This document shows positions 14,509 to 25,894 of a DNA stretch of 28,301 nucleotides, piece by piece. This stretch comes from a virus. Each line of letters starts with the position of its first letter. Within the stretch, counting starts at the first letter, position 1. Both the position numbers and the translations under genes were made by a program. The stretch is taken from positions 1 to 28,301 of the IMG/VR virus record IMGVR_UViG_3300032242_002194, one strand, 5' to 3'. The notes under the pieces are model-generated. The model was given only the letters and a program-made list of their open reading frames with translations, was not told the origin of the DNA and searched no databases.

Positions 14509-14844
14509 ATGAAAAGAATAGTAGCCGGATTAATTTTAACATTTATGGCTGTGGCAGCCAATGCACAGCATCATGGATATTACGGACATGGATGTTGCTA
14601 TCGTGGCGGCGTCTATTACGGAGGAAGTAATTGGATTGCACCTGCACTAATTGGTGGTGTTATTGGTTACGAACTAAGTCGTAATAATGCACCCGTTGTA
14701 GTCCAACAACCAGTTATTGTTCAACAACCATCTGTTGTAGTACAACAACCACCTGCAGAAGTAGTTTACATCGACGGTGTAGCATACAAGAAACAAATTA
14801 TGGTCGTCAATGGGGTTGCTCAAGAAGTCCTAGTGAGACTATAA
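14509..14844 (+). CDS. Exported small protein with Gln/Val/Pro repeats
   Basis: The 111-residue protein has a clear signal peptide (MKRIVAGLILTFMAVAANA, cleavage likely after ANA). A His/Gly/Tyr/Cys-rich segment follows (HHGYYGHGCCYRGGVYYGG), then a small-residue helix with Gly spacing (ALIGGVIGYELS). Three VVQQP-type repeats come next, and a C-terminal domain YIDGVAYKKQIMVVNGVAQEV. The layout resembles small periplasmic or outer-membrane proteins with a glycine-zipper-like segment. Phage genes of this kind can alter the envelope or block superinfection, but no function is established here. AGGAG lies 8 nt before ATG. The tmRNA acceptor piece begins right after its stop. Confidence 0.8.
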   Translation: MKRIVAGLILTFMAVAANAQHHGYYGHGCCYRGGVYYGGSNWIAPALIGGVIGYELSRNNAPVVVQQPVIVQQPSVVVQQPPAEVVYIDGVAYKKQIMVVNGVAQEVLVRL

Positions 14845-14916
14845 TTAAAGTTATTGCTGTATGAAGCAAAGAGAAAAGTGTTCTGGACGCGGGTTCGACT
14901 CCCGCCAGGTCCACCA
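14845..14916 (+). ncRNA. ssrA: tmRNA acceptor piece (circularly permuted ssrA, 3' half)
   Basis: The 3' end is unmistakably tmRNA: TGGACGCGGGTTCGACTCCC continuing to an encoded CCA, nearly the same as the E. coli ssrA 3' end. The T-stem is GCGGG 14889-14893 with CCCGC 14901-14905 around loop TTCGACT. Acceptor strand CAGGTCC (14906-14912) pairs with GGGCCTG at 15156-15162, all 7 bp with one G-U. The discriminator is A14913 and CCA is 14914-14916. No 5' acceptor or D arm lies upstream, so it is not an ordinary tRNA. The partner half lies 239 nt downstream, which is the two-piece arrangement. The 5' boundary is uncertain; GCTGT 14856-14860 could pair with ACAGC 15198-15202. Confidence 0.9.
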
Positions 14917-14922
14917 TAAATA
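14916..14922 (+). promoter_or_regulatory. Late promoter motif ATAAATA overlapping the tmRNA CCA end
   Basis: The final A of the encoded CCA (14916) is the first A of ATAAATA. The motif ends 4 nt before the ATG at 14927, the same geometry as at 1802, 19504 and 26579. It could drive the inserted gene and the tmRNA coding piece separately from the acceptor piece. Confidence 0.55.
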
Positions 14923-14926
14923 TATT

Positions 14927-15154
14927 ATGGAGAAACAAAAACTATTAAAATGGATCGCAATGGTGTTGTATGTTACTGAAATAGCATTGACCAGTTTTGA
15001 TCGATATCCAATTAATGTTTTTGTTGGTGTAACAGGTAGCATGTTTTGGACATGGGCCGCAATAGTGACAGAAGATACTCCACTTATTTGGAGTTCTGTA
15101 CTTGCTGTTCTTGTCTTTGGTGCTGGTGTTATAAACTACTTAATGTCTTTATGA
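14927..15154 (+). CDS. Small membrane protein encoded between the two tmRNA pieces
   Basis: The 75-residue protein starts MEKQKLLKWIAMVLYVTEIA and has two or three hydrophobic helices (about residues 8-24, 30-47 and 53-73) with no signal peptidase site, so it should be an integral inner-membrane protein. The ATG at 14927 is preferred to an in-frame ATG at 14861, because the intervening 66 nt is the tmRNA T-arm and CCA. It would be read from the late motif 4 nt upstream, without a ribosome-binding site. Its stop codon ends one base before the mature 5' G of the tmRNA coding piece. I do not recognise the family. Finding a whole gene in the segment processed out of a permuted tmRNA is unusual. 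Confidence 0.72.
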   Translation: MEKQKLLKWIAMVLYVTEIALTSFDRYPINVFVGVTGSMFWTWAAIVTEDTPLIWSSVLAVLVFGAGVINYLMSL

Positions 15155-15155
15155 T

Positions 15156-15338
15156 GGGCCTGCCATGGTTTCGACAGGGCAAAGAGTAACAGAGTGGACA
15201 GCTCGGGAATGTGAAACCCGTAGGATTGGGGTAACCCGGTCGTAGAAGCAAACCAAAGTAAAAGCAAACGATCAAAAGTTCGCCTTAGCTGCCTAAACTC
15301 AGCTTAGGGTAGTTATACCTCGTAACAGAAAATAACAG
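15156..15338 (+). ncRNA. ssrA: tmRNA coding piece (circularly permuted ssrA, 5' half with tag)
   Basis: GGGCCTG (15156-15162) is the 5' acceptor strand, followed by the D-arm-like CCATGGTTTCGACAGGGC typical of tmRNA. A G/C-rich region at 15202-15240 can form PK1-like pairings. Next comes the tag frame at 15264-15296 and the hairpin CCTAA (15292-15296)/TTAGG (15304-15308), which holds the stop codon like helix 5. GGTA/TACC adds another short hairpin. No T-arm or CCA follows, so this piece needs the upstream acceptor piece. tmRNA with SmpB rescues stalled ribosomes and tags the nascent chain for proteolysis. smpB is not in the window, so the host's would be used. Confidence 0.93.
15264..15296 (+). 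other. tmRNA proteolysis-tag reading frame, ANDQKFALAA-stop
   Basis: Resume codon GCA at 15264 opens the frame A-N-D-Q-K-F-A-L-A-A followed by TAA 15294-15296. The AND start and ALAA end are the classic tag determinants: AND-like residues bind SspB/ClpA and LAA binds ClpX. The form ANDxxFALAA resembles beta- and gammaproteobacterial tags, from memory. Confidence 0.93.
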
Positions 15339-15359
15339 AAAGCACCTACGGGTGCTTTT
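15339..15359 (+). terminator. Rho-independent terminator after tmRNA
   Basis: AGCACC (15341-15346), loop TACG, GGTGCT (15351-15356), flanked by AAA upstream and a TTTT run. It ends the tmRNA transcript. Confidence 0.85.
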
Positions 15360-15485
15360 CTTTTGGACAAATTTCCAATATATCGTGACAAACTTGTGCG
15401 TACAAGCACATGTTTTGTTTGTTAGTCTATGTACACTTGTAGGATAAACATTTTTAGTTTATGATCATAACATTAAAGGAAAACT
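15360..15485 (+). promoter_or_regulatory. Intergenic region with inverted repeats and a weak late-like motif
   Basis: These 126 nt between the tmRNA terminator and the next gene hold CTTGT-gcgt-ACAAG (15393-15406) and an imperfect late motif ATAAACA (15444-15450). An AAAGGA ribosome site lies 8 nt before ATG 15486. I see no convincing sigma70 promoter. Which element drives the downstream gene is uncertain. Confidence 0.35.
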
Positions 15486-22552: not shown

Positions 22553-24457
22553 ATGAGTAAAATTATCGGTATCGACTTGGGTACAACAAATAGCTGTGTG
22601 GCAATTCTAGAAAACGGAAAAGCCAAAGTAATTGAAAACAGCGAAGGCGCACGTACCACACCATCAATTGTAGCTTACACCGGAGACGAAGTTCTTGTAG
22701 GTGCAACAGCTAAACGTCAAGCAGTAACAAATCCAAAGAACACAATCTACGCAAGCAAGCGGCTTATTGGACGTAAGTTTGAAGAACAGGCTGTGCAGAA
22801 AGATATTGATTTGATGCCTTATAAAATCATCAAGGCAGACAATGGCGATGCATGGGTAGAAGTAAACGGAGATAAATTAGCACCTCCACAAATTTCAGCT
22901 GAAGTTCTTCGCAAGATGAAAAAGACTGCTGAAGACTATCTTGGTAAAGAAGTAACACAGGCTGTTATTACAGTTCCTGCCTACTTCAATGACAGCCAAC
23001 GTCAGGCAACCAAGGATGCAGGTAAGATTGCAGGACTTGAAGTTCTACGTATTATCAATGAGCCAACAGCGGCTGCATTGGCCTATGGTGTTGACAAAGA
23101 AGATAAACGTGATCGTAAGATTGCTGTATACGACTTAGGTGGTGGTACATTTGATATTTCTATCATTGAAATTGCCAACATCGAAGGCGAAAAACAAATT
23201 GAAGTGTTGAGCACTAACGGCGACACATTCCTAGGCGGTGAAGACTTTGACCAAGTTCTCATGGATCACTTGGTAGACGAGTTTAAGAAAGAATCCGGTG
23301 TTGATCTCAAGAAAGACATGTTGGCCTTGCAACGTCTAAAAGAAGCTGCTGAAAAAGCCAAGATCGAATTATCAAGTACTGCCAGCACTGGTGTTAACTT
23401 GCCTTACATCACAGCAGACGCAAGTGGCCCTAAACACTTGAACGTGACTATCAGTCGTGCCAAGTTTGAGAACATGGTTGAAACATTAATTCAACGCTCA
23501 ATTGAGCCATGTAAGATTGCCATGAAAGATGCAGGAGTTACAGCCGCTGACATCGACGAAGTTATTCTTGTTGGTGGTCAGACACGTATGCCTAAGGTAC
23601 AAGAAGCTGTTGAAGCATTGTTTGGTAAAGCACCACGTAAGGATGTTAATCCAGACGAAGCAGTGGCTGCAGGTGCCGCAGTACAAGGTGCTGTTCTAGC
23701 TGGTGACAAGACAGACGTTCTATTGTTGGACGTTACACCATTAAGCCTTGGTATTGAAACTATGGGCGGTGTGTTTACCAAGGTTATCAAGAAGAACACA
23801 ACAATTCCAACTAAGGCATCACAAACATTCTCTACAGCACAGGACAACCAACCTGCTGTGACTATTAAAGTTGGCCAAGGTGAACGTGAAATTTTCCAGT
23901 ACAACAAGGTACTAGGAGAGTTTAACTTAGAAGGGATTGATCCTGCTCCACGTGGCATGCCACAGATTGAAGTTACCTTTGATATTGACGCAAATGGTAT
24001 CCTTGACGTGAGTGCCAAAGATAAGGCAACAGGCAAGGAAAAGAAGATTACTATTCGTGCAAGCTCTGGTCTAACTCCAGAAGAAATCGAACGCATGGTA
24101 ACGGACGCTGAAGCCAATGCTGAAGAAGATAAGAAACAAAAAGAACTTATTGACATTAGAAATAGTGTAGAAAATGAATTGCATATGAATAAGAAATTCA
24201 TTGATGAAAATAAAGAAGAGTTTACTGAAGAACAGCAAACTGAACTTGACGGTTACATTAAAGCCCTTGAAGAAGCCATTGCTGGCACTGACTCGGGTGC
24301 AATGCAAGATGCCGCTGGCAAGTTTGATACTATTCTAAATCCAGTAAGACAGAAATTAGCAGAAGCTGCTAAGGTCAAGGAGAATACAACTAATCCTGAG
24401 CCAACAGCATCTACTGTTGATGAAAATGTAGTTGACGCTACCTTCACTGAGAAGTAA
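22553..24457 (+). CDS. dnaK: Molecular chaperone DnaK (Hsp70)
   Basis: The 634-residue full-length Hsp70 is close to the usual 638. The ATPase domain has phosphate loop [10 protein letters not shown] (D8, T11), [30 protein letters not shown] and [15 protein letters not shown]. The linker DVLLLDVTP lies near residues 388-396. The substrate-binding domain has [15 protein letters not shown] and [21 protein letters not shown] helical lid and an acidic tail ending VVDATFTEK follow, keeping the DnaK-type end. The sequence looks like a proteobacterial DnaK, not HscA. No dnaJ or grpE is in the window, so host co-chaperones would be needed. It heads a cluster with hsp20 and clpS and has a strong AAAGGAG site. 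Acquisition from a host is likely, though codon use resembles its neighbours. Confidence 0.98.
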
Positions 24458-24467
24458 AATCAGATCC

Positions 24468-24490
24468 GTGGGGTGCCTTCGGGGCCCCAC
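24468..24490 (+). promoter_or_regulatory. dnaK-hsp20 intergenic hairpin with UUCG loop
   Basis: GTGGGGT then bulged G75, then CC pairs with GG then GCCCCAC around a TTCG tetraloop (24478-24481), giving 9 bp. It lacks a following T run, so it is not a standard terminator. Its bulged G next to CC-tetraloop-GG copies hairpin 1 of the dnaK leader. Confidence 0.65.
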
Positions 24491-24520
24491 CTACGTTCTT
24501 GCTTAACAAAGGAGAAAATT

Positions 24521-24964
24521 ATGAACGGACTAACTAAAATTGACGCACAAGTCATCAACCAACTAAACAGGGCCCTCATCGGCTTTGATCGTATGTTCGA
24601 CATCGTTGAACAACGTTCTCTTAGTACTACAGGATATCCTCCACACAACATTGTACGTTTAGATGAAAATCTATACTGCATTGAAATGGCAGTGGCTGGA
24701 TTTAAAAAATCCGAAGTACAGGTCGAAGTTGAAGACAACACATTAACTGTTCGTGGAACAAGTGAAACACCAAATGAATCTGCTACACGTGAATATCTAT
24801 ATCGCGGCCTATCCAGCAGAGATTTTGCACGTAGCTTTCCTCTAGCAGAACACATGGTTGTTCGAGATGCTAAGATTGAAAACGGAGTACTGACTATCAA
24901 CATTGAACGAATCATTCCCGAAGCTCTAAAGGCACGGGTGATTGACATTGTAGAAGTTAAGTAA
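24521..24964 (+). CDS. Small heat-shock protein, Hsp20/IbpA type
   Basis: The 147-residue alpha-crystallin protein has an N-terminal helix (ALIGFDRMFDIVEQ) and an alpha-crystallin domain from YPPHNIVRLDENLYCIEMAV and AGFKKSEVQVEVEDNTLTVR through EYLYRGLSSRDFARSFPLAE to IENGVLTINIER, then IPEALKAR at the end. The pattern is that of IbpA/IbpB, ATP-independent holdases that pass clients to DnaK. The start is ATG 24521, which has AAAGGAG 6 nt upstream; an in-frame start at 24473 would run through the leader hairpin. Its last 17 leader bases through the start codon match those of dnaK. T4-like phages often carry Hsp20, but seldom beside a complete DnaK. Confidence 0.95.
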   Translation: MNGLTKIDAQVINQLNRALIGFDRMFDIVEQRSLSTTGYPPHNIVRLDENLYCIEMAVAGFKKSEVQVEVEDNTLTVRGTSETPNESATREYLYRGLSSRDFARSFPLAEHMVVRDAKIENGVLTINIERIIPEALKARVIDIVEVK

Positions 24965-25017: not shown

Positions 25018-25320
25018 ATGTCACAAGAGCAAATCGTACTCAGCGAAAAAACTAAATCTCAAGTTGAAGAACCCAAACGTTGGAAAGTTCTTTTTCTTAA
25101 CGATAACAGCACTCCAATGGAGTTTGTTATTGAGCTATTAACTAAAATTTTACATCATACAGAAAGTGTTGCACGAGATCTTACTCTAGAAATTCATAAC
25201 AGCGGTAGTGCAGTTGTTGGGATTTTCTCTTTTGAGATAGCAGAGCAAAAAGGTCTTGAATGCACTCAACTAGCACGTGACAACGGTTTTCCTTTACAAA
25301 TTACAGTAGAAGAAGAATAA
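25018..25320 (+). CDS. clpS: ClpS adaptor of the ClpAP protease
   Basis: The 100-residue adaptor has a flexible N-terminal extension (1-20) and a folded core RWKVLFLNDNSTPMEFVIEL. The N-degron pocket is conserved: N28, D29 (third position Asn30 where E. coli has Asp), T32-P33-M34 and H60 in LEIHNSG. ClpS delivers proteins with bulky hydrophobic N-terminal residues to ClpA and, in E. coli, reduces ClpAP action on ssrA-tagged chains. No clpA or clpP is visible, so it would act on the host protease. It follows a palindromic leader and is 1 nt upstream of the heme oxygenase start, in one operon. Confidence 0.94.
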   Translation: MSQEQIVLSEKTKSQVEEPKRWKVLFLNDNSTPMEFVIELLTKILHHTESVARDLTLEIHNSGSAVVGIFSFEIAEQKGLECTQLARDNGFPLQITVEEE

Positions 25321-25321
25321 C

Positions 25322-25894
25322 ATGAGTCTTAAAGATCTAACACACGCAGCACATAAAGAAGCAGAAACTCAGCCCTTTGTAAAAATTCTATTTTCTGGAA
25401 AAGTCAATCCGGACCTATATGCAACATATTTGTTTAATCAACATCCATGTTATGATCTATTAGAGACATATGCAATGGCATTTGGTCAACTTAACAATCT
25501 ACCGGATATTCGACGAGCTCCTAAAATCAACGAAGACTTTCGTGAGATATGGGGTAACAAGGCAGAAAGACCAGTTGACTTACCAGTGGTAAAAGAATAT
25601 CTTGATTACATAAAAAATCTTGCAGAAACTGCCCCAGAAAAACTGTTCAGTCACATCTATGTAAGACATATGGGTGACCTAGCTGGCGGACAAATGATTG
25701 CTAAACGTATACCCGGGTCTGGACTTATGTATCAGTTTAAAGATCCCGAAGCACTTAAAGAAGAAATTAGATCTCGTTTATCGGATGATATGGCAGACGA
25801 AGCTATTGTTTGTTTTAAATTTGCTGCTCAACTTTTTAAAGAAATGGGTGAAGTAGATCTTCCGCATTTTAAAGAAGAGTCTGCGGATGAGTAA
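25322..25894 (+). CDS. Heme oxygenase (HO-1 type)
   Basis: The 190-residue enzyme opens heme to biliverdin IXalpha, Fe2+ and CO using reduced ferredoxin and O2. Proximal heme ligand His11 is in THAAHKEAE, and the distal helix carries HMGDLAGGQMIAKRI (G118-D119...G122-G123-Q124), the usual GDLSGGQ motif. Length fits bacterial and cyanophage HO. The stop region overlaps the following bilin reductase start by 8 nt, giving coupled production of biliverdin and its reductase. T4-like cyanophages carry ho1, but there is no sign here of a photosynthetic host: no psbA or phycobilisome gene is in the window. Confidence 0.94.
   Translation: MSLKDLTHAAHKEAETQPFVKILFSGKVNPDLYATYLFNQHPCYDLLETYAMAFGQLNNLPDIRRAPKINEDFREIWGNKAERPVDLPVVKEYLDYIKNLAETAPEKLFSHIYVRHMGDLAGGQMIAKRIPGSGLMYQFKDPEALKEEIRSRLSDDMADEAIVCFKFAAQLFKEMGEVDLPHFKEESADE

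Follow-up and report, generated by a model that had tools for sequence, protein, structure and literature searches.

Permuted two-piece tmRNAs have been described in phages, among them the OM43 phage Melnitz and pelagiphages such as Mosig, and are reported to be common in aquatic phages (PMC9004378). In the sections considered here, no nested gene is mentioned for Melnitz (PMC9004378). By our own measurement, the spacer between the two pieces comprises 44 nt in Mosig, and we judged it non-coding by inspection. In the corresponding parts of the paper on a tmRNA database of 97,179 sequences, one permuted spacer is reported to hold a tRNA-Ala and the longest a repeat, with no protein gene mentioned, while homing-endonuclease genes occur only in intron-form genes (36 of the 883 intron forms) (PMC11915505). 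The locus analysed here shares with Melnitz and Mosig a phage-encoded permuted tmRNA, and with the Rfam family of permuted tmRNAs (RF04321; alpha, beta and cyanobacterial lineages) the order acceptor piece, spacer, coding piece as well as the acceptor stem, the T-arm and the tag frame, but it differs from these systems in that its spacer is a protein-coding gene. A protein gene is likewise nested in the tmRNA gene in the intron form, where a group I intron in the T-loop carries a homing-endonuclease gene (PMC11915505); there, however, the gene is in one piece, interrupted by a self-splicing intron, and its exons become ligated, whereas here the gene occupies the natural spacer and the pieces are predicted to stay separate. 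As in phage moron or cassette insertions, diverse small genes are swapped at a conserved site, but in this case the site is part of a single RNA gene, and translation signals would come from the RNA helix that flanks it. Two-piece phage tmRNAs are thus known, but our literature search, whose coverage left out key older papers, returned no account of protein genes in the spacers of permuted tmRNAs.

We analysed the complete IMG/VR record IMGVR_UViG_3300032242_002194, a linear viral fragment of 28,301 bases that is referred to as the window in the following. ARAGORN called a single gene in the window, a tmRNA* at 14824-15387 with the tag ANDQKFALAA, and the Rfam model RF04321 (tmRNA_permuted) matched positions 14855-15296 over its full length (model positions 1-213) with 113.7 bits (cut-off 47, E = 9e-22). 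An earlier note, made from the sequence of this DNA, had proposed a permuted two-piece tmRNA with a protein gene between its halves; every coordinate that we checked is right, and the covariance model returns the permuted two-piece form and neither a one-piece tmRNA nor a tRNA, both of which are ruled out at this site by ARAGORN and Rfam. The assignment of 14855-15296 as a circularly permuted two-piece tmRNA is thereby confirmed computationally. The features of the locus are as follows:

14855-14916, plus strand: acceptor (3') piece (ARAGORN tmRNA*; RF04321)
14889-14905, plus strand: T-arm
14906-14912, plus strand: acceptor 3' strand CAGGTCC
14913, plus strand: discriminator A
14914-14916, plus strand: encoded CCA
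14917-15155, plus strand: intervening segment (IVS, the spacer) of 239 nt, flanked by the CCA and the acceptor 5' strand; its excision from the precursor is predicted
14917-14927, plus strand: 5' strand of the IVS end helix (UAAAUAUAUUA), pairing with 15141-15151 with one mismatch in the MFE fold
14927-15154, plus strand: nested ORF of 75 aa plus TGA (UGA at 15152-15154), ending ...YLMSL* (translation, codon usage, weak DUF6552 match)
15141-15151, plus strand: 3' strand of the IVS end helix and also the last ORF codons (conserved pairing; MFE fold)
15152-15155, plus strand: UGAU, the ORF stop and base -1 (of 64 distinct IVS ends, 63 read UGAU or UAAU)
15156-15296, plus strand: coding (5') piece with acceptor 5' strand GGGCCTG (15156-15162), D-like region, resume codon and tag (ARAGORN; RF04321)
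15264-15296, plus strand: tag frame ANDQKFALAA*
15339-15364, plus strand: probable intrinsic terminator AAAGCACC-TACG-GGTGCTTT followed by TCTTTT, from our reading of the sequence (the scan reported the inverted repeat on the minus strand only)

The acceptor stem between the two pieces comprises 7 bp (GGGCCTG/CAGGTCC) and includes G3.U70, the alanine identity pair, and the tag frame has a degron-like ALAA end and a stop codon. The short non-coding spacer that is usual for the class, although not formally defining, is absent, its place being taken by 239 nt with the 75-codon ORF. Some phage tmRNAs are degenerate in general, and the gene could be a decayed remnant that serves as a mere insertion site and from which no two-piece tmRNA is made. 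The full-length Rfam match, the intact ALAA-ended tag, G3.U70 and, in relatives, the covariation of the two acceptor strands flanking the nested gene all argue against decay, which we consider highly improbable. Two further candidates were rejected: (i) a group I intron-form tmRNA, as the T-arm is intact at 14889-14905 and no intron family reached the gathering threshold, and (ii) a minus-strand ORF at 14851-15042 (WRESNPRPE), a well-known artefact of translating a tRNA-like T-arm.

We gathered several hundred loci via neighbouring genes and tmRNA sequence patterns and kept those in which a T-arm and a CCA-bearing acceptor 3' strand are followed downstream by an acceptor 5' strand complementary to the latter, which gave 94 distinct permuted phage tmRNAs. 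An IVS-filling ORF is present in 48 of these 94, a set that is enriched in spacers bearing a Shine-Dalgarno (SD) motif since two of the scans used this motif; among the loci gathered without regard to spacer content, 47 distinct spacers have 50 nt or more, and 16 of these are coding. The ORFs start just inside the spacer and stop 1-15 nt before the coding piece, in 38 of 48 cases at exactly -1. BLAST grouping of the 48, together with 17 ORFs that run into the coding piece, resulted in 35 families, about 30 of them unrelated after run-in and trivial families were dropped. The cargo includes a complete IscU inside the 405-nt IVS of locus L361 (Pfam NifU_N, E 3e-55), a complete thioredoxin with WCGPC inside the IVS of L320/L266 (Pfam, E 4e-21) and a single-helix micropeptide of 22-24 residues (MNDxLxxLAIGVVVVLVVFALVLL) in at least 12 distinct spacers. 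Nine spacers with ORFs from eight unrelated families have identical ends, TAAGGAAGTTT...AGTTTCTTTATGAT, a pattern suggestive of cassettes being exchanged between fixed ends. Judged by these sequences, the window case is not unique and dozens of related viruses carry different small genes in the same tmRNA gap. An assembly chimera of a tmRNA and an unrelated gene, which a single metagenomic record with no identical second copy found might suggest, is already largely refuted and receives next to no weight here, as the same architecture occurs in dozens of independent contigs and identical or near-identical IVS genes are found across different metagenomes. Among 84,980 bacterial species genomes, the search for SD-type spacers gave 14 pattern matches, in none of which the parser found a permuted tmRNA; ARAGORN on these 14 gave one ordinary tmRNA call only.

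Two syntenic relatives of the window, L113 and L122, carry the same tmRNA with an empty spacer. Their upstream gene has 69-72% DNA identity to that of the window, both tmRNA pieces are orthologous (94% identity over 72 nt for the acceptor piece, 80-84% for the coding piece), and their spacer, TAAGAGTATAATGTATTTTTATGAT, comprises 25 nt only. Since orthologous halves are found with this short spacer, the nested gene is an insert in an existing permuted gene and dispensable for the tmRNA. No relative with a broken copy of the frame, which the earlier note would have taken as evidence against its proposal, was found: relatives either are without the frame (25-nt IVS) or hold a different intact gene.

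The pairing between the two halves extends beyond the acceptor stem. The description of this pairing as 7 bp only holds for the stem but not for the restriction, because a further helix of 11 positions joins the IVS ends, with the first 11 spacer bases pairing with bases -15 to -5. Across 64 distinct IVS end pairs, 93.6% of the positions are paired in register compared to 50-62% when the strands are slid by one or two, and 659 pairs are observed versus 472 ± 12 with partners re-dealt. In the predicted fold of the window precursor, U-1 faces A73, G-3 faces C75 and U-4 faces A76; as the stop codon at -4 to -2 faces the CCA, it would therefore also have a structural role in pairing the CCA end.

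Covariation of the IVS ends as one helix makes it unlikely that the two halves stem from separate transcripts, the alternative offered by the earlier note. In such an arrangement, the ORF would form its own small operon between or across them. The helix continues the acceptor stem and both of its ends are needed on one RNA when folding takes place; moreover, the orthologous genes have a 25-nt spacer, and the ORF starts and ends in or beside the end helix. The protein gene between the pieces is itself what suggests separate transcription, and promoter-like matches do lie nearby, but in chance number (5 versus 3.5) and all on the minus strand. We consider this arrangement very unlikely.

In most coding spacers, the 5' strand of the end helix reads UAAGGA... 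and places an SD 5-8 nt before the AUG, whereas the window strand is without SD. Within the unselected set, an SD-like motif is found in 15 of 16 coding and 0 of 22 non-coding spacers (Fisher p 1e-9). End helices are weaker in coding than in non-coding spacers (-10.9 versus -13.8 kcal/mol, p 5e-7), as expected if the SD must open.

The 75-codon membrane-protein gene said to fill the spacer is borne out by the ORF at 14927-15154, its codon usage and its predicted helices. Only one base separates its UGA from the mature coding piece, and the openness of the frame has p ~0.004 by shuffling. With codon usage learned from 32 other window ORFs, the log-odds amounts to +18 in the ORF frame, compared to -60 and -39 in the two remaining forward frames and -39.5 ± 13.8 in shuffled sequences, so that the usage lies about 4 sd above shuffles in that frame and fits phage genes. 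Pfam DUF6552 (PF20189) matches residues 6-69 on model positions 13-76 of 78 with E 9.6e-5 and 23.1 bits, below the cut-off of 27; the protein is likely a distant relative of this family and is not counted as a member. In a single-sequence AF2 model of moderate confidence (mean pLDDT 69), helices span residues 2-24, 28-47 and 54-74, and the product is predicted to be a small three-helix membrane protein. The PDB fold search with this model gave no significant match, PHROGs and NCBIfam gave no useful match, and no close homologue was found in IMG/VR viral contigs at the sensitivity used. A weak match to the nested ORF in Pelagibacter phage Mosig was discarded, as it lies 2 kb away from the Mosig tmRNA and outside the Mosig spacer.

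Translation of the window ORF is the least certain step because no Shine-Dalgarno sequence precedes its AUG (UAAAUAUAUU-AUG). The tmRNA could be real and the ORF an untranslated open frame or a relic in a tolerated loop, with only SD-bearing relatives expressing theirs, and both the lack of a close viral homologue in the IMG/VR search and the relatives with the same tmRNA but no insert fit this explanation. Against it, the frame keeps phage codon usage, a weak DUF6552 match and three predicted helices, and the stop at -1 is the one used in 38 of the 48 coding IVSs. An SD-like motif occurs in 17 of 32 window genes, and about half of them are, like the nested ORF, without one. Overall, we regard an untranslated or relic ORF as improbable.

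The check for a bias towards synonymous substitutions, proposed earlier for the inserted frame, is positive for several spacer genes of relatives (pN/pS 0.08-0.45). Within-family pairs gave pN/pS values of 0.16, 0.08, 0.19, 0.18 and 0.15, and 0.45 for the micropeptide, some of these ratios resting on few substitutions; most of the computable shifted-frame controls are higher than the true frame. Families L303/L318 and L359/L364 have too few substitutions for pN/pS. By these ratios, most spacer ORFs with usable relatives are under purifying selection. The strongest such case is the family MNIEQxFKxQLDSGATxMFFY..., whose embedded copies have a pooled pS of 0.51 and pN of 0.19 (ratio 0.37), with shifted frames at 1.1-1.2. 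It is embedded across four acceptor stems (CAGGTCC/GGGCCTG, CGCCTCC/GGGGGCG, CCGATCC/GGGTCGG and CACCTCC/GGGGGTG), each internally complementary, and hence compensated, across the ORF. The family also occurs as a free-standing gene (L376, L377 and L384-L386), where the copies end ...PLFKER, KETA, KEPQ or KNK; embedded copies end ...KVSL because their last codons are read from the helix strand.

We propose, with a probability of roughly 80%, that the locus encodes a dual-output transcript, i.e. a permuted, functional-looking phage tmRNA whose spacer was colonised by a protein gene. One precursor would be transcribed through acceptor piece, ORF and coding piece and would end at the probable terminator at 15339-15364. 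In the folded precursor, the acceptor stem and the spacer-end helix would hold both pieces together, and cleavage by RNase P in front of G15156, together with 3' processing downstream of the CCA at 14916, would release the two-piece tmRNA. Translation of the ORF would take place either before excision, on nascent or unprocessed RNA, or afterwards on the free linker, presumably yielding a small membrane protein. As the helix usually contains both the SD and the last codons, translation of the spacer and processing of the precursor would be expected to interfere with each other. The spacer would represent a general cassette site in this phage group, where unrelated small genes are swapped between near-constant helix ends; usually, the 5' strand would contribute the ribosome-binding site and the 3' strand the last codons ahead of the stop. 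A more far-reaching form of this proposal, which we put forward tentatively and consider doubtful, regards the spacer as a dedicated dual-function element: maturation of the tmRNA would free a minimal mRNA with its ribosome-binding site in the processing helix and a CCA-pairing UGA at its 3' end, translation and maturation would co-regulate, and the excised mRNA could be a substrate of its own tmRNA.

As a permuted precursor needs cuts at both spacer ends, the mRNA of the spacer gene would be made, and possibly released, by tRNA-processing enzymes, which would couple protein expression from the spacer directly to maturation of the ribosome-rescue RNA. Dozens of examples with recognisable cargo (IscU, thioredoxin) provide a system in which phage gene packing, RNase P products as mRNAs and trans-translation acting on its own by-product can be tested. 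A segment usually taken as waste would thus have a function, and current pipelines easily miss or mis-annotate such genes.

The closest named relative of the window NrdB is that of Xanthomonas phage X1 (61%), followed by Stenotrophomonas phage Mendera and similar phages (55%), and the nearest relatives of a neighbouring 129-aa protein are found in phages of Synechococcus, Acidovorax and Delftia; the host is likely a beta- or gammaproteobacterium. In isolated phages of Xanthomonas, Stenotrophomonas and Alcaligenes that carry a permuted tmRNA, the spacers comprise 56-126 nt and were judged non-coding by inspection, which counts against our proposal. The permuted tmRNAs that ARAGORN finds in Stenotrophomonas phage vB_Sm_QDWS359 (QDWS359, L372) and Xanthomonas phage X1 (L370) are unannotated in their records, and in the QDWS359 record a reverse-strand hypothetical CDS is drawn over the permuted tmRNA. 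Elsewhere in the window, genes that are host-like by sequence appearance encode DnaK (Hsp70, 22553-24457), a small heat-shock protein (24473-24964), a ClpS-like adaptor (25018-25320) and a heme oxygenase (25322-25894); the presence of a ClpS-like adaptor in the vicinity of a tmRNA that adds a degron tag may deserve attention.

The survey provided further observations on spacer content. The micropeptide (consensus like MNDNLGSLAIGVVVVLVVFALVLL) is found at L279, L295, L182, L194, L201, L236, L353, L369, L033, L157, L269, L213 and L265. Two ORFs in a row occupy the spacers of L321 (474 nt) and L350 (256 nt); the first is common to both, and the second one in L350 is similar to the only spacer ORF of L284. 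SD-bearing spacer ORFs run in frame past the mature 5' end in L148, L160, L165 and L019 (101-nt spacers), in L221, in L359/L364 and in L099/L188/L326, with pN/pS values of 0.35 for the CPxC...HxC group and 0.94 for the L099 group; such ORFs (e.g. the L148 and L221 groups) would be non-stop messages if translated from the excised RNA. Long predicted tags of about 26-31 residues (e.g. ANADTFDFSAMSFTGNTVSGKSKVALAA) are encoded by permuted phage tmRNAs of L009, L012, L014, L033 and others.
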